Below, in pieces: positions 2,575-16,938 of a stretch of 64,000 nt of DNA. The notes beneath the pieces were generated by a model, which saw only the letters and a list, made by a program, of their open reading frames with translations, was not told the DNA's origin and did no database searches. A program made the position numbers and the translations under genes. Positions within the stretch are counted from its first letter, which is position 1; every line of letters starts with the position of its first letter. The stretch comes from Aquabacterium sp. OR-4 (GTDB lineage Bacteria; Pseudomonadota; Gammaproteobacteria; Burkholderiales; Burkholderiaceae_C). The DNA lies in the NCBI RefSeq assembly GCF_025290835.2, contig NZ_JAOCQD020000002.1:682001-746000 (forward strand). Direction: 5' to 3'.

Positions 2575-4410
2575 TCAAAGGCGATGCGCCAGCGCCAGGC
2601 GCTCGAACTCGTTCTCGATGTCGCGCACCAGGCGCGGCATGTCGAACAAGGGCGAACTTCGGCCGTGCTCGTCCAGGTAGCGGCGGTACGAGGCGGCACG
2701 CGCCGGCTCGCGGCCGATGCGCACCGCCAGCTTCTCGTACTCGGCCAGCGAATCGGTCACCAGGTCGGGCAGGCCCACGGCGTGCAGCAGGCTGCCGGCC
2801 ATGCGCGAGATGTAACTTCGCCCCGACCAGGTGACGATGGGCAGGCCCATCCACAGCGCATCGCTGGCCGTGGTGCCGGCGTTGTACGGGAAGGTGTCGA
2901 GCATCAGATCCGCACAGCGGAACCGGGCCAGGTAATCGGGCGGCGCCGCACGGGGCGCAAAGAGTATTCGCTCGCGCGCCACGCCATGCGCGTCGGCGCA
3001 GCGCAGCATGTTTTCCTGCGCGGTGTCGTTGTCGGCCAGCAGCCACAGCACGCTGTCGGGCACGCCCGCCAGGATGCGCATCCACGAGGCAAAGACGTTC
3101 TCGGTGAACTTGTGGTTGTTGTTGAACGAGCAGTACACGAACTTGCCTGGCGGCAGGCCCAGTTCGGCCCGTGTCGGCGTTCGGCCTACCTCGCGCTGCC
3201 GGTCGCTCACCTGGTAGCAGTGCGGCAGGCGGATCGGTTTCTCGGTGCAATACGGCTCCAGCTCGGGCGGCATCACGAAATGGTCGGCCAGGATCCAGTC
3301 GACCCCCGGCAGGCCCGAGGTGCCCGGCAAACCCAGGTAGCTCACCTGGATGGGCGCCGCGCGGTAGCCCAGGATGGCGGGCCGCGCACCGTTGGTCAGG
3401 CCCTGCAGGTCAACCAGCACGTCGATGCCGGCTTCGGCGATCAGGCGGGCCGCGGCGGCGTCGTCGACCGCGTCGATGCGCACCACATGGTCCATGGCGC
3501 GCAGGATGCGCTGGCGCTGCGGCATCGCGCTCTCGGGTGTCCAGCAGAAGGCCCAGGTTTCGACCCGGGATCGGTCGTGCAGCTCGAACAGCTCGGGCGT
3601 CAGCAGGCCCACCGCATGCATGTGCAGGTCGCCCGACAGGTAGCCGATGCGTATCTTGCCGGTGCGCGGCGGCTGCAGCGAGTGCAGCGGCACCGGCTGG
3701 GCCTTGGGCACCCGCTCGTTGGCAAAGCGCACGGCGGCCAGCAGCTGCATGGCGGGGTCGTCCGACAGGCCCATCATGGCCAGCAGCGAGGTGCCCATCA
3801 GCAGGCGGTTGTGCGTGACCTCGCCCACCGGCTGCCAGGCCGGCCATTCGCACTGCTTCTGGCGCAGGTGCACGTAGTGCTGCACCACGTTGGGCTGTTC
3901 GGGGTTGAGCTCGAGGCTGCGCTTGAGCTCGGCCTCGGCATCGGGGTAGCGGCGCAGCTGCTCGAGCAGGCGGCCGCGGTTGTTCAGGGCATGCACGCGC
4001 AGCTCGGGCTGGGCGGTGCCGTCGAGCACCTGCTGCCATTCGGCCAGGGCCTCGTCGTGCTGGCCACGGCGCTCGAGCAGGTGCCCGAGGTTGAGCCGGG
4101 CATGCGGAAAGTCGGGCTGCAGGGCCACGGCCTGACGGTAGGCCTGCTCGGCCTCGGCATGGCGCTGCTGGGCACCCAGCAGGGTGCCCAGGTTGAAGCA
4201 GGCCACATGGGCCATCGGGGCGGGGCCGGCCTCGATCCAGTCGCGGTAGGCCTGAACTGCGCCGTCCAGATCGCCGCTCGACTGCAGCCGCTGCGCTTCA
4301 TGCACCAGCTCGACAAGCGAGCGCTGGGTCACGACGGGGTGGCTGGATTCGACGGGTTTCTGGGGGGTGGACATGGTCAAGGTCGGCGAAGACAGGGTGT
4401 CGGCGAACAT
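2575..4410 (-). CDS. TPR-containing GT41 (OGT/SPINDLY-like) protein glycosyltransferase
   Basis: A cytoplasmic protein O-glycosyltransferase of the GT41 family, which moves sugar from a UDP-sugar to Ser/Thr of proteins. Residues about 30-190 hold TPR units (for example around 72-105, 106-139 and 140-172). Residues about 250-611 are the GT-B catalytic region. His263/His265 sit in the GDLHMH segment that aligns with the catalytic-region histidine of human OGT. Lys434 in the CSFNNNHK segment aligns with the UDP-binding lysine. The MLDTFPYNAGTTASDALW and SSPLF segments are classic family signatures. The ATG at 4410 has a good GGAG six bases upstream; an internal ATG at 4374 has none. It heads the operon with the type I secretion genes, so the exported protein is a candidate acceptor. 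Flagellin is the alternative acceptor. Acceptor and sugar are unknown. Confidence 0.88.
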   Translation of the reverse strand: MFADTLSSPTLTMSTPQKPVESSHPVVTQRSLVELVHEAQRLQSSGDLDGAVQAYRDWIEAGPAPMAHVACFNLGTLLGAQQRHAEAEQAYRQAVALQPDFPHARLNLGHLLERRGQHDEALAEWQQVLDGTAQPELRVHALNNRGRLLEQLRRYPDAEAELKRSLELNPEQPNVVQHYVHLRQKQCEWPAWQPVGEVTHNRLLMGTSLLAMMGLSDDPAMQLLAAVRFANERVPKAQPVPLHSLQPPRTGKIRIGYLSGDLHMHAVGLLTPELFELHDRSRVETWAFCWTPESAMPQRQRILRAMDHVVRIDAVDDAAAARLIAEAGIDVLVDLQGLTNGARPAILGYRAAPIQVSYLGLPGTSGLPGVDWILADHFVMPPELEPYCTEKPIRLPHCYQVSDRQREVGRTPTRAELGLPPGKFVYCSFNNNHKFTENVFASWMRILAGVPDSVLWLLADNDTAQENMLRCADAHGVARERILFAPRAAPPDYLARFRCADLMLDTFPYNAGTTASDALWMGLPIVTWSGRSYISRMAGSLLHAVGLPDLVTDSLAEYEKLAVRIGREPARAASYRRYLDEHGRSSPLFDMPRLVRDIENEFERLALAHRL

Positions 4411-4762: not shown

Positions 4763-5401
4763 CTAGAAGCCCAGGCTGGCCAGCAGGTCGTCGACCTCGC
4801 CCTGGTCCTGCACGATGTCGGTGCGGCCTTCGGCGTTGACCACCGGGCCGGGCAGCACATTGCTGTCGACCTTCTCGCGCTGCTCGGCCGGCACCACCTG
4901 CACCAGCAGCTTGACCAGGCTGTCTTCGAGGTTGTTGGCCAGCTTGACCACCTTCTGCACCACCTGGCCGGTCAGGTCGTGGAAGTCCTGCGCCATCATG
5001 ATGTCGGTGAGGTGCGAATCGACCGCGCTGGTGCGCTTCTCGACGTCGCTGACGAAGTTCATCACCGCGCCGCTGGCGATGGCGCGCACCGGGTCGGCGG
5101 TGAGCTGATCGGCCAGCAGACGGGTCTGCCGGGCAATCTCGCCCTGCTCGGCCTTGGCCATGTCGACCGAGTTGAGCACCTTCTCGGCCGCCGCGGCGGT
5201 TTTCGAGGCGATGTAGGTCAGGCGGTCGCGCGCGTCGGGAATGCCGTCCGCGGCCACCTGCAGTTGCGGCATCACGCCCAGCTGGCGCAGCGTGTCGTGC
5301 AGCAGCCGGGTGATTTCGCCAATCTTCTGCACCACTTCGGGTGCAGCCATCGGACCGGTTGCGCCTGCCGGCACCATGGCGCCCACGTCTTCCATTTTCA
5401 T
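4763..5401 (-). CDS. cheZ: CheZ, CheY-P phosphatase
   Basis: Dephosphorylates CheY-P to end the motor-switching signal. The 212 residues match the usual CheZ length. The catalytic helix reads DFHDLTGQ at residues 139-146, giving Asp142 and Gln146 in place of E. coli Asp143 and Gln147. The last residues (GEVDDLLASLGF) form the amphipathic CheY-binding helix at the C-terminus. The start is an ATG 17 bp after the cheY stop, so cheY and cheZ form a two-gene operon. It is probably read from the sigma-28 promoter at 5862-5888. A second, shorter CheZ-like protein is encoded at 44351. Confidence 0.97.
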   Translation of the reverse strand: MKMEDVGAMVPAGATGPMAAPEVVQKIGEITRLLHDTLRQLGVMPQLQVAADGIPDARDRLTYIASKTAAAAEKVLNSVDMAKAEQGEIARQTRLLADQLTADPVRAIASGAVMNFVSDVEKRTSAVDSHLTDIMMAQDFHDLTGQVVQKVVKLANNLEDSLVKLLVQVVPAEQREKVDSNVLPGPVVNAEGRTDIVQDQGEVDDLLASLGF

Positions 5402-5418
5402 GACATGTGCTCCCGGCG

Positions 5419-5817
5419 TCAGGCGGCAGTGGCCTGGAGTTTCTGCATGATCTTGGTCACCTTCTCTTCCAGCGTCGCCTTGGTGAAGGGTTTGACCACG
5501 TAGCCGGCGGCGCCGCTCTGGGCGGCCAGCAGGATGTCTTCCTTGCGCGCCTCGGCGGTGACCATCAGCACCGGGATGTGCTTGAGCGAGGCGTCGGCCT
5601 TGACCGCCTTGAGCAGGTCAAAGCCGTTCATGTTGGGCATGTTGATGTCGCTGACGACGAAGTCGTAGCGCGCGTTCTTCAGCATCTGCAGCGCCACGGC
5701 GCCGTCCTCGGCTTCGTCGGCGTTGTTGGCGCCCATTTCCTTGAGCAGGCCCCGCACGATGCGACGCATCGTGTTGAAGTCGTCGACGATCAGGAATTTC
5801 AGGTCGGCGGGATTCAT
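5419..5817 (-). CDS. cheY: CheY, chemotaxis response regulator
   Basis: Single-domain receiver of 132 residues that binds FliM when phosphorylated by CheA. Acidic pocket Asp12/Asp13, phospho-acceptor Asp57, Thr87 and Lys109 are all in place, and the [12 protein letters not shown] segment after Asp57 is typical of the E. coli CheY subtype paired with CheZ. The start has AGGA a few bases upstream. It is the first gene of cheY-cheZ, with a sigma-28 promoter about 45 bp upstream. A second CheY (44873) belongs to the cheA operon. Confidence 0.97.
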
Positions 5818-5861
5818 CGCATTCCTCAGTTCAGGTGTTTCCGGTCACGAGCATCTGTCGG

Positions 5862-5888
5862 TTATCGGTGCGCGTGCCGCGAACTTGA
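5862..5888 (-). promoter_or_regulatory. Sigma-28 promoter of cheYZ
   Basis: Read on the minus strand: TCAA (5888-5885), 15 bp, ACCGATAA (5869-5862). It has the same architecture as the other FliA-type promoters in this window and ends about 45 bp before the cheY start. Confidence 0.75.
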
Positions 5889-5994
5889 AGCCGGCCGTGG
5901 CGGGCTGTCTGCGGCCACGCGCCGACGGGCGTGACGGAATCGGCAGTCGTGTCGTTGGGTCTCGGGCGGCGATCAGGCGGTGATCGGGCGGTGA

Positions 5995-8900
5995 TCAGGC
6001 CGCCATCAGGCGCGGGCCCGCCGTGGTGTCGCTGCGCTGCGCCGGGCGCGGCCGGGGCGGTCCCGACACCTCGTTTTCGCTGCGCTGGCGCAGCGCCGAG
6101 GCGAAATCGAGCGCGTAGACGCGGCTTGAATGGGCCGGCCGCCCGGCACCCGCGCCAGCAGCCGCACTGGCGGCCGCGGCAAGTGCCGGGTTCAGTGCCG
6201 GGTTCAGCGCGGGATTCAGCGCGGGGTTGGGCCCGGCACCGCCGGCCAGGGCCGGCACGGGCCCAGCGGCCTGCGCCGGCATGCCCGGCCGGCCAGGCAC
6301 GCCAGCGGCAGGCCGGCGCGCCTGGCCCGGCAGCGGACGCCGGCCGGGCGGGCCGGCGGCCCGGCGCGGGCGGGTCAGCTCATGCCGCAGCGGCCGCCAC
6401 AGCGTGTCGACCGCCAGCGCGCGGCCCCAGGCCAGCGGCAGGCCCTGGGCCAGGCACACCGCGGCCACCCCGGCCTCGATGGCGCCATCCATCAGCCACC
6501 AGGGCGAGGTGCGCAGGCGTGCGCGCAGTTCAGCCACCGGCACCGCCACCAGCCAGGGCGCCCAGGCCGGCGGCCAGCCGGCCGGGCGGGCACCCGGCCC
6601 CCCCGCCCTGCCCGGCGCCTGACCGGCCTGGCCGGCCGACGGCGGCGCCGAGAACAGCGACAACGCGGACAGCGTGGGCAGCGCAGGCAGCCGCTGCCAC
6701 GCCCAGCGCCAGGCGCGCCGCAGCGGCCGGCTGCCGGCCAGGTGCGGCGAAACCGGCCGCGAGGGCACGGCATCGGCGCCAGGCAGGGTGTCGGGTTCGG
6801 TCATGCTCAGGATTCGGGAGGAGGTTGCGGCCGTGTCTGGAGGGGAGCGACGGGTCGGGTCCAGGGCGGTATGTCGGGCGGTGTGTTGGGCGGTGTGTCG
6901 GGCAAAGTCACGGTCGGTGTGACGGTCGGTTCGAAGCTCGGCTTGCCGGTCGGCGCGGAAGTCGTGGCCCAGGCCGGCGGGTGTGTCGGCCCCCGGCGGC
7001 CGGCCGCGGCCTGGCAGCCGGCGCGTCAGCCACCCGAACCAGCCGTTGCCGGTGGTGCCAGTGCTGGTGCCGGTGGTGCCGGTGCCTGGCTCGCCGGCCT
7101 GACCGGCGCTCGGGCCCCTGCCCAGCCGCCGCAGCGCGCCGGCCAGCAGGCCGGGCAGCCGGGCCAGCGCGGGCCGGTCCGGCGGCGGTCGGCCGGGCGG
7201 CAGGCCTGGCTGGCTGGCCATGGCCGGCAAGGGCAGCACCGTGCGCCGTCGCGGGCGTGGCGCCGGCCCGGCCAGCGTGGGCTCGGCGGGGTCGAAGAGC
7301 AGTGAACGGTCGATCGGCGTGTCGCGCCAGCGCAGCGGGTCGGCGCGCGACAGCGCCGCACGGCCCGCCGGCGCCGCAGACGGCGGCCAGGCATCGCCCA
7401 GCTGCGGTTCGCGGCGCGCGGATGGCCAGGCGTCGACGGAATGCTGGAGGCTGCCGGCGGCCGGGCCCATGCCGGCGCCAGGGGCGTCGTGCGCAGGCCG
7501 GTCGGTGGCGAAAACGCTGCCGCCGGTCACCGTGTCGGCCTCTGGCTCGGGCCATTGCCAGGCCTGCGGCCCGGCGGGCGCCAGCGGCTCACGCCGCAAC
7601 CCGCCAGCGCCTTCGCCGGCGCTGGCCTGCCTGCCCTGCGGTGGGCCTGCAGAAACCTGCGCCGGTGGCGCCAGATCGGGCACCCAGCCAGCGTCCAGAC
7701 CAGGCCCGTACGGCGGCTCCAGCACCGGATCGTGCCGTTGTCGCAGGGTCGGGTCAGGCCCGGGCGTTCGCACGCCGGGCGAGATGGGCGTTCGAAACAC
7801 CCGATCCGGCGCGGGCTCGCGCCAGGCCTCGGCCGGCCGCTGGCCAGACGCCGCAGCCACCGCAGGCCACGCTGCCGGAGGCGCGTGGCCGTCCGGTGGT
7901 CGTGACCGCGATGGCGGCTCTTTCCGTAAATTCTGCGGATTTGGCGTGTCTTGCATGGTTTGCGCTATTCGCGCTTTTGGCGCATTGAGCACCTCGGGCG
8001 CGTTCAGCACATCCAGCGCGTGGGGCGCGTTGGGCGTGTTGGGCGCATTCGGTGCGGCACGCGCATGGCCGGCGGGTTTCAGCCGCTGTCCACGCGCCAC
8101 CAGGCCGTCCCAGGCGCGCAAGGTGGCGTGTTGCAGCCCGGCGAGCGCCGGTGCGGTGCCACGGCCCATCCAGGCACTGACCTGGCCCAGGCGGCCGAGC
8201 ATGTGGCGGCGCAATTGCGCAGTGCCGCTGTGACGGTCCAGAAATCCCAGGTCGAGCACGACATCTGGCGGGGCGCCAGGGGGGGCGGGCCGGTCGCTGT
8301 CCGCGTTCAGCACCGGTGGACGACGCGCCCCGACGGTGCTGGCGTCGGGCGCGGCCACGCCTTTTGCCAGCACAAGCTGTCGGGGCACGGCACCGGCGGT
8401 GTCGTGCTGGTCAGGTACCGGTCCCTGGTCGGGCTGCCGGGTTGGAACCGCATCGGCGATGCGCGTTGGCGCCGACGGCATGGCGTCGGCCAGATCGGGC
8501 ACAGGGTCGGCCGCCATCTCGGCGGGCCGGGTGACGGCGATGGGGGTATCGGGCTGGGGCGCGGCAGCCTGCGTTGCGGCAGGCGGCGCCAGCGCGTGAT
8601 CGGCCGCCGCCCGCGGGGGCGGCTGCAGGTCGACCACGTCGTCCAGCAGGGGAAGGTTTTGCAGCGCACCGCGCGGCGCCTGATGCGTTGCCGCAGCGGC
8701 AGCGGGTGCGGGTGCGGCAATGCGCCAGGGTGCAGATGCAGGTGGGGCTACCGCTGCCGGTACGGCTGCAGCGGCTGCAGCGGCTGGCGCTGGCGCCGGT
8801 GCCGGCGCCGGTGCGGCGGCGGGTGCCGACGCAGCAGCGCGCTGCATCAGCGTGGCGCGCGCCGCAGCGCTGGCCGTGTGGCCGCGTGGCGGCGGCGGCG

Positions 8901-9669
8901 CCGGCATCGGCATCGGCCGGGGCTGTGCCGCGGCAGTTGCCGGCCCAGGCTGGCCTGGCGTGAGCGCCGGGTCGCGCGGTGTCGGGCCCACCGCCGGCTG
9001 GCGCGGCGCGGTTTGAGCGGGAAAGGCGGTCTGAACAGCCTCAGTGGCCTGAGGGGCCTGAGCGGGATGAGCGGAATGAGCGGCACGAGCGGCCGGAGCG
9101 GCCGGCGCGCGCTGCAGGGCCGGCGCTGCCGGTGTGGCAAGCGCCTGGCGTGCTGGCGCCGGCATCTGGCGCGGCGCGGGCATGGCCAGGTCGGGCACCG
9201 GCTGGCGCTGGCTGCGCACCCGGCGCATGCGCAGGGCCGGGCCGCTGCATTCGCGTGCCAGTTCGGCGTCGCTCACGGCAAAGGCCATCGGTTCGGGGGC
9301 CAGCACCACCACCTCGCAGCGGCGGTGCGTGCCCGGGCGGCCCTGCACCGCGGTCACCACGCAGGTGTCGCCGGTGGCCAGGGTCAGCACGGCCGGCAGG
9401 TCATGGGGCAGCAGCTGCAGCGGGCTCACGGGCCCCAGGCTGGTGTCATAGCCCAGCTGCTGCATGGCCTGCAGCGTGCGGCCGGGGTCGTCGGCGAAGC
9501 GGTGGTGATCCAGTCCACTGAGCTGGGCCACCGCGGCGCGCAGGCCCAGGTGGTCGATCAGCCAGGGCAGCACCTGTGCAATCGGGTCGCCCGCAGGCAG
9601 TGCCGGGGCGTCGGCAAGCCAGATCGCGGACGGATCGGACAGGAGATTTCTCGAATCGAATGCAAGCAT
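5995..9669 (-). CDS. Standalone C39-like domain protein with ~1100-residue Pro/Ala/Arg-rich tail
   Basis: Unrecognised as a whole, 1224 residues. Residues about 27-126 align with the C39-like domain of the ABC exporter at 209-2497 over its full length (DP-A--L-WL--H-G at the start, LP-VL-L--GD-C in the middle, CE-V at the end), again without a catalytic cysteine. There is no ABC or transmembrane exporter domain. The rest is low-complexity, rich in Pro, Ala, Arg and Gly, with short tandem units (NAP-type, HTA-type, GTT-type). A weakly hydrophobic stretch lies near the end, followed by a less biased C-terminus (VYALDFASALRQRSENEVSG). The ATG at 9669 has GAGGGG upstream; an open frame extends 49 codons further but lacks a site. 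Codon third positions I checked near the C-terminus are mostly G/C, which supports real coding. It sits between cheYZ and motAB. A substrate-docking or scaffold role is inference. Confidence 0.65.
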   Translation of the reverse strand: MLAFDSRNLLSDPSAIWLADAPALPAGDPIAQVLPWLIDHLGLRAAVAQLSGLDHHRFADDPGRTLQAMQQLGYDTSLGPVSPLQLLPHDLPAVLTLATGDTCVVTAVQGRPGTHRRCEVVVLAPEPMAFAVSDAELARECSGPALRMRRVRSQRQPVPDLAMPAPRQMPAPARQALATPAAPALQRAPAAPAARAAHSAHPAQAPQATEAVQTAFPAQTAPRQPAVGPTPRDPALTPGQPGPATAAAQPRPMPMPAPPPPRGHTASAAARATLMQRAAASAPAAAPAPAPAPAPAAAAAAAVPAAVAPPASAPWRIAAPAPAAAAATHQAPRGALQNLPLLDDVVDLQPPPRAAADHALAPPAATQAAAPQPDTPIAVTRPAEMAADPVPDLADAMPSAPTRIADAVPTRQPDQGPVPDQHDTAGAVPRQLVLAKGVAAPDASTVGARRPPVLNADSDRPAPPGAPPDVVLDLGFLDRHSGTAQLRRHMLGRLGQVSAWMGRGTAPALAGLQHATLRAWDGLVARGQRLKPAGHARAAPNAPNTPNAPHALDVLNAPEVLNAPKARIAQTMQDTPNPQNLRKEPPSRSRPPDGHAPPAAWPAVAAASGQRPAEAWREPAPDRVFRTPISPGVRTPGPDPTLRQRHDPVLEPPYGPGLDAGWVPDLAPPAQVSAGPPQGRQASAGEGAGGLRREPLAPAGPQAWQWPEPEADTVTGGSVFATDRPAHDAPGAGMGPAAGSLQHSVDAWPSARREPQLGDAWPPSAAPAGRAALSRADPLRWRDTPIDRSLLFDPAEPTLAGPAPRPRRRTVLPLPAMASQPGLPPGRPPPDRPALARLPGLLAGALRRLGRGPSAGQAGEPGTGTTGTSTGTTGNGWFGWLTRRLPGRGRPPGADTPAGLGHDFRADRQAELRTDRHTDRDFARHTAQHTARHTALDPTRRSPPDTAATSSRILSMTEPDTLPGADAVPSRPVSPHLAGSRPLRRAWRWAWQRLPALPTLSALSLFSAPPSAGQAGQAPGRAGGPGARPAGWPPAWAPWLVAVPVAELRARLRTSPWWLMDGAIEAGVAAVCLAQGLPLAWGRALAVDTLWRPLRHELTRPRRAAGPPGRRPLPGQARRPAAGVPGRPGMPAQAAGPVPALAGGAGPNPALNPALNPALNPALAAAASAAAGAGAGRPAHSSRVYALDFASALRQRSENEVSGPPRPRPAQRSDTTAGPRLMAA

Positions 9670-9885
9670 GGCGCTTTCCCCTCGTGTGAGCGGAGGTGTG
9701 CCAGCATGGTAGGCAGCCGATCGGAAATCATGAGCCCGATGAGGGCGGCAATTGCCGGCCTGATCGTCGGTGGCCGGGCCCGCGAAAGACGGGCCAGAAG
9801 ATGTGCGCCGGGGCACGGCGGCCGCGGCGCGACGGCACGCGAACGGCCGCTGAAAAACGGCGCCGCGGCAGGCCAGGCCGGCACA

Positions 9886-9914
9886 GCGCCAGGCCGGCGC
9901 CGCCCGCCTGGCGC
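9886..9914 (-). terminator. Hairpin after motB
   Basis: GCGCCAGGC and GCCTGGCGC form a nine-bp stem that starts at the motB stop codon. No U-run follows directly, although a T5 run lies about 30 bp further on. It is a possible terminator or 3' stabilising hairpin. Confidence 0.4.
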
Positions 9915-10861
9915 TAGCGCGACGCGGCGGGCCGTGGCGGCGTGGCGGCGGCGCCCGGCGCGTCGTCGGCGCCCTCGCCTTCCGGGCCGCCGGGGCGCAG
10001 GAAGCGGTCGAGGGCGTCGCTGTTCATCACGATGATGCTGATGCGCCGGTTCTGCGGATCGTTGGGGTCGTTGCGGTTGTAGGGCTGGCTCGAGGCCAGG
10101 CCCAGCACGCGCAGCACCCGGTCTTCGCCCAGGCCGCCGCCGATCAGCTCGCGCCGCGCGGCGTTGGCGCGGTCGGAGGCCAGCTCCCAGTTGCCGTAGC
10201 CCTTGTCGCCACCCGGAAACACCATCGCGTCGGTGTGCCCCTCGAGCGTGATGCCGTTGGGCACCTCGGCCAGCACGCTGCCGATGGCCCGCAGCAGCTC
10301 GCGCATGTGCGGTTTGACCAGCGGGCTGCCCGAATCGAACATCGGCCGGTTCTGCTCGTCGGCGATCTGGATGCGCAGGCCGTCGCGGGTCATCTCGACC
10401 TTGATCTGCGACGTGAACTGCGCCAGCTTGGGGCTGTTCTTCAGCTCGGTCTGCACGCGTTCCTGCAGTTCCTCGAGCATCTGCGCCTCGGCGCGGCGCT
10501 GCTCGGCCTTCAGGGCCTGCAGGTTGATGGTCTTGCGCGGGGCCGGCACGTCGCCGTTGCGCACCTGGCCGTGGGTGCGGCTGAGGTCGGTGCCGCCGCC
10601 CTTGAGCACGCTGGACGAATCGCCCGAGCCCGAGCCCCCGTGCAGCAGCGCCACCTTCAGCGGCGAGTTGAAGAAATCGGCAATGCCCTTCTTGTCGCCT
10701 TCGGAGGTGCTGCCCAGCAGCCACATCAGCAGGAAGAAGGCCATCATCGCGGTCACGAAGTCGGCGTAGGCGATCTTCCAGGCGCCCCCGTGGGCCGCAT
10801 GGCCGCCCTTCTTCACCCGCTTGATGATGATGGGCTGGAGCTTCTTGGCGTCACCCGACAT
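9914..10861 (-). CDS. motB: MotB, flagellar stator peptidoglycan anchor
   Basis: Stator subunit that carries the proton-binding aspartate and anchors the stator to peptidoglycan. A single transmembrane helix spans about residues 31-50, with Asp34 in the ADFVTAMMAFFLLMW segment as the expected proton site. The OmpA-like peptidoglycan-binding domain occupies about 150-280 (GHTDAM, then NWELASDRANAARREL). Its 315 residues are the usual length. The start ATG has GGAGG five bases upstream. It follows motA by about 130 bp. The C-terminal 30 residues are a Pro/Ala-rich tail. Confidence 0.97.
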   Translation of the reverse strand: MSGDAKKLQPIIIKRVKKGGHAAHGGAWKIAYADFVTAMMAFFLLMWLLGSTSEGDKKGIADFFNSPLKVALLHGGSGSGDSSSVLKGGGTDLSRTHGQVRNGDVPAPRKTINLQALKAEQRRAEAQMLEELQERVQTELKNSPKLAQFTSQIKVEMTRDGLRIQIADEQNRPMFDSGSPLVKPHMRELLRAIGSVLAEVPNGITLEGHTDAMVFPGGDKGYGNWELASDRANAARRELIGGGLGEDRVLRVLGLASSQPYNRNDPNDPQNRRISIIVMNSDALDRFLRPGGPEGEGADDAPGAAATPPRPAASR

Positions 10862-10993
10862 CGGTGCCTCCGGTGCGCCACAGCGCCATCAAGCGGCCCG
10901 CCCGGCCGGCCGGCCGCCTGGCATCCAGCCTGGCCGGATCACGGGCGGCGCGCCGCCGGGGCCACGCGCCAAAGGCGTTGCGGAGGCCGGCCA

Positions 10994-11851
10994 TCACTTC
11001 TTCTTCACGTGCTGTTCGAGCTCGCTGAAGGTCGGGCGCACCGGCGACAGCAGCACCTTGCGACCGAACTCCACCGCCACCTGCGGGGCATAGCCCTGCA
11101 TGCTGGCCAGCAGCGTGGTCTTGATGCACTGCAGTTCCTTGGCGCTTTCCTCGAGCTTTTGCTCCAGCAGGCCGGCCAGCGGCTCGGCAAAGGCATAGGC
11201 CAGCAAGATGCCCAGGAAGGTACCCACCAGGGCCGAGCCGATCATCGCGCCCAGCACCGCCGGGGGCTGACCCACCGAGCCCATGGTCTTCACCACACCC
11301 AGCACGGCGGCCACGATGCCGAAGGCCGGCAGGCCGCCCGCGATGCGCTGGATCGCGCCCACTGGGGCATGCGCCTCCTGGTGGTGGGTCTCGATCTCGC
11401 TGTCCATCAGGCTCTCGATCTCGTGGGCATTGAGGTTGCCCGAGACCATCATGCGCAGGTAGTCGGTGACGAACTCGGTGACATGGTGGTCGTTGCCGAC
11501 GTTCGGGTACTTCTGGAAGATCGGCGAGTTGTGCGGGTCCTCGACGTCCTTTTCAATGGACATCAGGCCTTCCTTGCGCGCCTTCTGCAGGATGTCGTAC
11601 ATGAGCGCCAGCAGCTCCATGTAGCGGTCCTTGGTGTACTTGCTGCCCTTGAAGCACATGCCCACGCCAGCCATGGTGGACTTGATGACCACCATCTGGT
11701 TGTTGACGATGAAGGCGCCCAGCGTGGCGCCGCCGATCATGCCCATTTCCCAGGGCAGGGCCTTCAGGATCGGACCCATGTTGCCGCCGTGGGCCACGAA
11801 GATGCCGAACACGCAGCCCAGGCAGACGAGCCAACCGATGATGACGAACAT
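10994..11851 (-). CDS. motA: MotA, flagellar stator proton-channel subunit
   Basis: Forms the A subunits of the MotA5B2 stator that drives the rotor through FliG. It has four transmembrane helices, with the large cytoplasmic loop between helices 2 and 3, and the IAGGLPAFGIVAAVLGVVKTM segment characteristic of MotA helix 3. The start at 11851 gives 285 residues beginning MFVIIGWLV, the usual length and N-terminus in betaproteobacteria. An upstream in-frame ATG at 11878 is possible. A sigma-28 promoter lies at 11913-11939. Neither start has a clear Shine-Dalgarno. Confidence 0.96.
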   Translation of the reverse strand: MFVIIGWLVCLGCVFGIFVAHGGNMGPILKALPWEMGMIGGATLGAFIVNNQMVVIKSTMAGVGMCFKGSKYTKDRYMELLALMYDILQKARKEGLMSIEKDVEDPHNSPIFQKYPNVGNDHHVTEFVTDYLRMMVSGNLNAHEIESLMDSEIETHHQEAHAPVGAIQRIAGGLPAFGIVAAVLGVVKTMGSVGQPPAVLGAMIGSALVGTFLGILLAYAFAEPLAGLLEQKLEESAKELQCIKTTLLASMQGYAPQVAVEFGRKVLLSPVRPTFSELEQHVKKK

Positions 11852-11912
11852 GGTGCGTTGTGCGGAGGTAAGACCCATGGGCGCGCCCGGCTGGGCGCAC
11901 CGCTTGGCAGGG

Positions 11913-11939
11913 TTATCGGCGGCGTGGCGGGGGCATTGA
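11913..11939 (-). promoter_or_regulatory. Sigma-28 promoter of motAB
   Basis: Minus-strand TCAA (11939-11936), 15 bp, GCCGATAA (11920-11913). The final TAA of the -10 element is also the stop codon of the upstream methyltransferase gene. Confidence 0.8.
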
Positions 11940-12770
11940 GCCGGAACTGGCGGCCACGGGGCGCCTGTTCTCGATGCGGTAGACCCACACCGGCTGTGCG
12001 GCGTCGCGGCGCAGCACGCCCGCCGGGGCCACACCGGGCACGGGGAAATCCAGGCTCACCAGCCAGCTGCCGGGCGCCATCTCGGCGCAGGCCTTGGCCC
12101 AGGCGCGGGCCATCGATTCGGGGCGCTGGAACAGGTACACCAGGCGCAGGCCCGACCAGTCGTCGGCCCACAGGTCGCCGCGGCGCACCTGGGCAAAGCC
12201 GCAGCGCCAGCGCGCGGCCAGGGCCAGGGGCCAGCTCCATTCGGTGCCGCGCAGCGCGGCTTGCGGAAACTCGCCATGCAGGGCCTGCAGGCCCTGGCCC
12301 AGGCCGCAGCCGGCGTCCAGCATGGCGGCGCCCTCGCCGCCGGCGGGCAGCGGCACCAGCCGGGCCAGGCCGTGCAGCGCGTCGGGCGGCGTCGGAAACA
12401 GCGGCGCATCGCGCCAGGCCTTCAGCGGATAGGCCAGCATCAGCAGGCCCAGCGGCAGCAGCCAGGCCCAGGCCGGCACGCCTTGCGCCAGCCCGCTGCC
12501 CAGCATGGCCACCGGAAAGCCGGCGCCCAGGATCATGCGCCGCCAGGTGCTCAGGCCCGGCCAGGCCATGGCCAGGGCCCCGGCGCACACCATGCCGGTG
12601 GCCAGCGACAGCCAGGGGCTGGCGCCCAGGCCGCGCAGGCCGGCGGTGAGCAGCCAGGCGCTCAACCAGCTCAGCAGCGCCGGGGCCGGCCAGCGCAGGC
12701 GCTGCAGGCCGTGCGGTGGCGCACCGGCGGGCGTGGCCAGGGGCGGCGAGAACGTGGCATGGGCCGGCAT
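11913..12770 (-). CDS. Membrane-linked class I SAM-dependent methyltransferase
   Basis: About 285 residues from the ATG at 12770. Residues about 20-110 are strongly hydrophobic, with three or four probable transmembrane segments. The C-terminal half is a Rossmann-type methyltransferase domain with the SAM-binding loop LDAGCGLGQGLQAL. The substrate is unknown. The open frame extends upstream to 13016, but that part crosses an A+T-richer palindromic stretch that looks intergenic, so the shorter start is preferred. It lies directly before motA; its stop codon is embedded in the motA -10 element. Confidence 0.75.
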   Translation of the reverse strand: MPAHATFSPPLATPAGAPPHGLQRLRWPAPALLSWLSAWLLTAGLRGLGASPWLSLATGMVCAGALAMAWPGLSTWRRMILGAGFPVAMLGSGLAQGVPAWAWLLPLGLLMLAYPLKAWRDAPLFPTPPDALHGLARLVPLPAGGEGAAMLDAGCGLGQGLQALHGEFPQAALRGTEWSWPLALAARWRCGFAQVRRGDLWADDWSGLRLVYLFQRPESMARAWAKACAEMAPGSWLVSLDFPVPGVAPAGVLRRDAAQPVWVYRIENRRPVAASSGSMPPPRRR

Positions 12771-15342: not shown

Positions 15343-15647
15343 GCGGTGCTCTCCGGTGCGGTGGCGGGTTGGTATGGGATGTACTGTAGGCAGCAGAACT
15401 GGGCCGGAACATCGGCCCGTCTCCGCTTCTGGAGTCCCGTTTCTTCCAAAGCTTTGTCAGGCAAATTCCTACAAGCGCGCGCGGCGGCATCGACTTGTCA
15501 TCCATGGGGCCCAGCATGCGAGGGCCGCCGCAGGAGCGGCTGGCACAATGAATCGACACCCGCTGCACCCTGCGGCGGCCTGCGCCGCACAGCGGCCCGC
15601 GCCCGCGCCGCCCGCCCGCGCACGGGGTGTCTGTACGAGGTGAGCCG
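15343..15647. other. Divergent intergenic region between flhD and the membrane receiver gene
   Basis: No gene. An A+T-richer patch at about 15425-15470 and a GGGCCG/CGGCCC hairpin near 15400-15417 may belong to the flhDC control region. Confidence 0.5.
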
Positions 15648-16415
<768 letters not shown>

Positions 16416-16624
16416 TCACCGATCTGGAGATGCCCAACATGAATGGCGCCGAGCTGATCGCCGCGGCGCACCAGCGCCCCGATCTGTCGCGGCTGCCGAT
16501 GCTGGCCATCACCGGGCACGACGAGATGCAGGCGCACCTGCAGTCGTATGCGCGCCTGCACGGTGTGCTGCGCAAGCCCTGGAACGACGCCGAGCTGCTG
16601 CAGCGGGTGCAGTCGCTGATCTAG

Positions 16625-16938
16625 GCAGGCATCCGCCCGCCCCGCTGCGCCGCGGTATCCCGGCGGCCTCGCGGCGGCCACGCGGCGGCGGTCTGGCCGG
16701 CTTTTGGCGGGCTTTTCGGGCTTTGGCCGCGTTGGCGGCTGCCTAGACTGCGATCCAGCGTCTAGTCAACCTCGCGCCATGATCCCGACCCCCAAGTCCC
16801 TCCCCGACCAGCGTCCGCTCCGGCCAGAGCGCGCGTCCGATGTCGGGGCCGGTGATCCAGGGTCCGGCGGGCGGTGGTCACCGAATTCGCTGTCGTTCCT
16901 GCCCCTAGTACCGAGCCCCAACGCCCCCGGAGCCCACC
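16625..16938. other. Intergenic region
   Basis: No gene seen. It presumably holds the promoter of the 443-residue protein. A TAGACT at about 16743-16748 could be a -10 element, but no clear partner is visible. Confidence 0.4.

Follow-up and report, generated by a model that had tools for sequence, protein, structure and literature searches.

CLDs (C39-like domains) have been described as parts of exporters, and the present locus raises the question of what such a domain does when it is encoded on its own, on a long tail, among motility genes. The gene lies in a window of 64,000 nucleotides (the whole stretch analysed) from the 6.6-Mb genome of Aquabacterium sp. OR-4. Its frame (5995–9669, minus strand) runs from an ATG at 9669, with the purine-rich stretch GAGGGGAAAGCGCC immediately 5′ of it, through 1224 codons to a stop ending at 5995. 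It is flanked, with gaps of 244 and 177 bp, by motB (9914–10861; PF13677 and PF00691) and cheY (5419–5817; PF00072, E = 3.7e-29; 80–94% identity in relatives), with motA (11000–11881; PF20560, E = 2.3e-33) on the one side and cheZ (4763–5401; PF04344, E = 5.1e-59) farther on at the other, all on the minus strand. A previous reading made from the letters of the window (the sequence-only reading) had placed the gene in this way among cheYZ and motAB and held that no described component was known there; none was found in the literature that we searched.

Homologues of the orphan formed 22 clusters in all, nine of 760–1080 aa and 13 of 493–670 aa, of which some are near-copies (P0018–P0022; P0010 is 97% identical to the protein of a second genome of the genus, G004). 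The 13 shorter homologues were found with the G004 orthologue as the query, among the best 7994 candidates scored. The nearest named relative was a protein of Ideonella sp. DXS22W (P0001, 784 aa), which is 70% identical to the orphan across the domain (E = 6.1e-59). The start and the C-terminus of the orphan align with those of the nine long homologues, i.e. in 10/10 long members. Since this architecture is common to 22 protein clusters, a chance frame was ruled out and the family is judged to be real from its conservation, which bears out the frame proposed earlier. The third-position G+C of the gene was 0.81 compared with 0.90–0.95 for its neighbours, a difference that may be explained by an Ala/Pro-rich make-up (20.7% Ala, 16.2% Pro and 9.6% Arg over the whole protein). 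A Pfam search with the full-length protein matched no family even at E values as high as 10, no promoter was found in a scan over 5300–12100, and the Rfam scan of the window returned zero matches.

Sequence, profile and model matches placed the CLD at about residues 25–153 (9211–9597, minus strand). In a whole-genome search, residues 26–125 matched the CLD of the type I exporter at 209–2497 with 30% identity (E = 1.3e-8), nearly the same segment (27–126) as had been aligned in the sequence-only reading, and the next match had an E value of only 0.2. Profile comparison of the family CLDs with exporter CLDs using hhalign gave a probability of 99.8 and an E value of 5.4e-28 over residues 25–149. 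The N-terminal part of TIGR03375, the profile of LssB-type exporters, matched 16/16 family CLDs (best E = 2e-11; E = 0.0097 for the orphan of the window), with scores far under the full-length cut-off because only the N-terminal domain is present. The predicted structure of the domain, the check suggested by the sequence-only reading, was a confident model with a C39-like fold, and its best PDB match was an exporter CLD (3b79). The first-helix catalytic cysteine of an active C39 peptidase was lacking, with no cysteine at residues 25–45 in any of the 16 family CLD rows. Walker A and ABC signature patterns were absent from 23/23 family proteins and, with no Pfam match in the orphan either, the TMD/ATPase part of a type I secretion ABC exporter (LssB) was not found. 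Thus the domain is free-standing, with no exporter domains following it, and both its sequence and its model indicate a homologue of the exporter CLD that has the same fold and has lost the first-helix cysteine.

In a tree of 16 orphan CLDs and 42 exporter CLDs, the two groups fell on opposite sides of a long 100/100 branch, with the reservations that the alignment has only 153 columns and that the tool warned of long branches joining within the orphan group. Five repeat loci (L078, L079, L080, L095 and L098) and P0010 were dropped before the tree was built, and P0014–P0016 and P0019–P0022 were left out. A recent copying of the neighbouring exporter's CLD is therefore not supported. Nor was the exporter CLD seen to evolve faster in the genomes with an orphan, as the ratio of CLD identity to TMD+NBD identity was 0.77 and 0.82 in those two compared with 0.69–0.82 over 16.

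The family is narrow and its presence patchy. Within the genus, the orphan was found in 2/21 genomes, that of the window and G004; all other matches but a chance match in G014 were exporters extending into the membrane domain, and the exporter is therefore present in 20/21 genomes. A CLD match at E = 1e-15 was obtained in 63/399 genomes of the family sample, with the orphan in the same two genomes only; 28 of the non-orphan loci were confirmed as exporters and the remainder were judged by frame length. Sampling a broader set of 399 relatives (E = 1e-24) yielded no further orphan, and the single match among 399 genomes of the order sample at 1e-12 was the window's own. In the class sample, where the best 10 candidates or fewer per genome were scored with an exporter-CLD profile, 65 matches were obtained in 60/369 genomes, of which one was the orphan and 64 look like exporters. 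Those with short frames (G863, G888, G892 and G898) were truncated exporters, interrupted by a stop or by the edge of the contig. In the other 60 the frame is 658 aa or longer; nine of these were confirmed to continue into the exporter membrane domain, and 51 were assigned by length alone. A search of plasmids returned zero matches.

The tail comprises 1070 residues past residue 154. The full-length model of a homologue (P0018, 563 aa) was confident for the CLD, and most of the remainder had pLDDT values below 50 with predicted helices, suggesting that the tail of the orphan is largely disordered. The length and the Pro/Ala/Arg-rich composition given in the sequence-only reading thus hold, but the tail is not featureless. 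An N-terminal motif, LLSDPxxIWL (residues 9–20; 9610–9645, minus strand), precedes the CLD in the family alignment; its tryptophan (Trp17 in P0018 numbering) is invariant in 23 rows, and the modelled motif has a pLDDT below 50. Within the tail, the island VLDLGFLDR (residues 471–479; 8233–8259, minus strand) has one column invariant in 23 rows, and the expression VLDLxFLD matched 16/23 family proteins and near 0 shuffled sequences. Two further islands, RHDPVL (residues 645–650; 7720–7737, minus strand) and RREPQL (residues 752–757; 7399–7416, minus strand), fit R[RHQVK][ED]PxL, which occurs in the tails of 15/23 family proteins and at near zero in shuffles. The order of the islands varies between subfamilies. 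A hydrophobic helix with CLAQGLPLAWGR (residues 1062–1085; 6415–6486, minus strand) lies in a C-terminal block with a C, a G, a P and a W that do not vary across 23 rows, and the most hydrophobic 19-residue window falls in this block in 22/23 family proteins; for the orphan of the window the mean hydrophobicity of the helix is 1.46, borderline for a membrane span. The protein ends in the conserved RVYALDFASALRQRSE...GPPRP...LMAA (residues 1183–1224; 5998–6123, minus strand; 10/10 long-member rows), the last 40 residues aligning to the very end in ten long members. No paralogue of this C-terminus was found in the host genome (best E = 0.099), and a search for the C-terminal part in CLD-less proteins recovered only six family members among 7989 candidates scored.

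Beyond cheZ lie a TPR plus glycosyltransferase family 41 (GT41) gene (SPINDLY/OGT-like; 2575–4410, minus strand; PF13844, E = 1.4e-68) and the exporter with its N-terminal CLD (LssB/TIGR03375; 209–2497, minus strand; 735.7 bits, cut-off 693.1), which is of the same CLD type as the orphan 3.5 kb upstream. In the window's genome, the exporter is followed by HlyD and a TolC-type protein, then by glycosyltransferases. The motB–cheY junction was visible in 16/17 stretches fetched from genus-mates, with the orphan there in one (G004), and the order motB–cheY–cheZ–GT41–exporter was kept in 15/15 stretches fetched far enough. The orphan gene is thus an insertion into a conserved motAB–cheYZ–GT41–exporter order. 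In seven of the loci fetched from relatives, cheZ and GT41 lie 0.9–6.2 kb apart; among the frames listed there, three of these loci had one for a methyl-accepting protein and the others had unrelated ones. As for the co-occurrence raised in the sequence-only reading, both orphan-bearing genomes of the genus carry the exporter and have the orphan between motB and cheY; conversely, the exporter is far more widespread than the orphan, and these two are the only genomes in which the position was seen. The GT41 glycosyltransferase adjoining the exporter, kept in 15/15 readable relatives, could glycosylate flagellin or a Ser/Thr-rich giant protein. One such giant, a 5206-aa ALTTAQ-repeat protein with 23% Ser+Thr and an EF-hand-like C-terminus, is encoded outside the window (G000:C2:650561–666181; L111, L110 and L033), 13 kb from type I secretion genes; its EF-hand matches are below the family cut-off. 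ALTTAQ repeats were found in 19/21 genus genomes, and giants lie on the exporter's contig in G008, G012, G015, G016 and G020.

According to two articles, the CLD of HlyB is a domain without peptidase activity that binds HlyA in its unfolded state and on which specificity mainly depends (PMC11026475; PMC8277102). The closeness of a free CLD to an exporter with an HlyB-like CLD suggests cargo capture, and we tentatively favour, at somewhat less than even chances, the view that the orphan is an accessory capturing or queuing unfolded export cargo near the membrane for the neighbouring type I system. The orphan CLD, as a non-catalytic relative of the cargo-gripping domain of the exporter, would bind an unfolded segment of some type I substrate in the cytoplasm; the best local candidate is the giant ALTTAQ-repeat protein, a putative cargo of the neighbouring exporter. 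The long disordered tail, which bears short motifs and, near the C-terminus, the hydrophobic helix, may then tether the orphan at the membrane or attach it to other components, and the tethered protein would hold or queue cargo beside the exporter. This reading is consistent with the homology and fold of the CLD, the loss of the first-helix cysteine, the nearby exporter, and the conserved islands and C-terminal helix. Against it, the exporter (20/21) and ALTTAQ repeats (19/21) occur mostly without the orphan (2/21), which is therefore not required for export; G008 has a giant, a repeat frame of 6123 aa, but lacks the orphan, and in G004 the giant and the exporter are on separate contigs. The borderline hydrophobicity of the helix and the lack of any match to the TIGR03661 cargo signal in the host genome also count against it. 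A more elaborate form, which we regard as doubtful, is a two-part recognition of cargo. In addition to the CLD built into the exporter, a second CLD, carried on a flexible tail that bears motifs and is tethered to the membrane, would capture unfolded surface proteins of giant size, and its expression together with motAB–cheYZ would tie their export to motility.

Alternatively, the free CLD may be a decoy or brake that competes with the exporter CLD for cargo or HlyD and lowers export, e.g. during swimming. Its fold, shared with the exporter CLD, and its insertion between motB and cheY, amid genes for the motor and for chemotaxis, would suit this role, but the long, fully supported branch shows that the orphan CLDs are not close copies of the 42 exporter CLDs; mimicry is therefore not evident, and we consider this role unlikely. 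It is similarly improbable that the domain serves a task outside type I secretion and shares the fold alone: the separate branch, the narrow and patchy family and the commonness of the fold among papain-like proteins point that way, whereas the best sequence-profile and fold matches were to exporter C39 or C39-like domains and the gene is near such an exporter. Slightly less probable still is a scaffold, in which motifs of the tail would bring the exporter together with flagellar or chemotaxis proteins at a single place in the cell, with the CLD as the exporter-side contact. Several short islands in a variable tail, in an order differing between subfamilies as for linear motifs, and the motB–cheY position in both orphan-bearing genomes are in keeping with it; however, none of the islands was traced to a known partner, and only two genomes show the position. 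Both the decoy and the scaffold are thus weaker explanations than cargo capture. That there is no real protein, the frame being open by chance in DNA of 72% G+C or a decaying remnant of an exporter, is highly improbable, as the low third-position G+C and the long open frames on the opposite strand are outweighed by the same architecture in 22 clusters, the aligned ends of the long members and the wrong codon-position pattern of the reverse-strand frames.

Type I secretion is usually described as three proteins, which a stand-alone CLD would supplement with an accessory, either soluble or tethered. The domain itself is of a known kind. It resembles the CLD of LssB/HlyB-type exporters (TIGR03375; 3b79 and 3zua) in its fold, its sequence profile over 25–150 and the absent first-helix cysteine, but differs in standing alone on a long tail, without transmembrane and ATPase domains. 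The C39 peptidase domains of PCAT1, LahT and ComA share the fold; unlike the orphan CLD, which is without the first-helix cysteine, they are catalytic and are parts of transporters. No description of a free-standing CLD was found in the literature searched (coverage mostly without subscription journals); within it the free-standing, tailed form is new, and the family seems to be undescribed. A stand-alone CLD would let cargo recognition be studied separately from transport and, if linked to motility, would be relevant to the switching of cells between a swimming and an attached state. Its general importance is limited by the narrow distribution of the family.

Elsewhere in the window, on the plus strand at 15645–16700, a membrane segment and a very Pro-rich stretch occur in one frame, with a CheY-like receiver domain directly after them in another. 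The change of frame may be due to a frameshift within the Pro-rich run or to an error of assembly, or the receiver domain may belong to a gene of its own.
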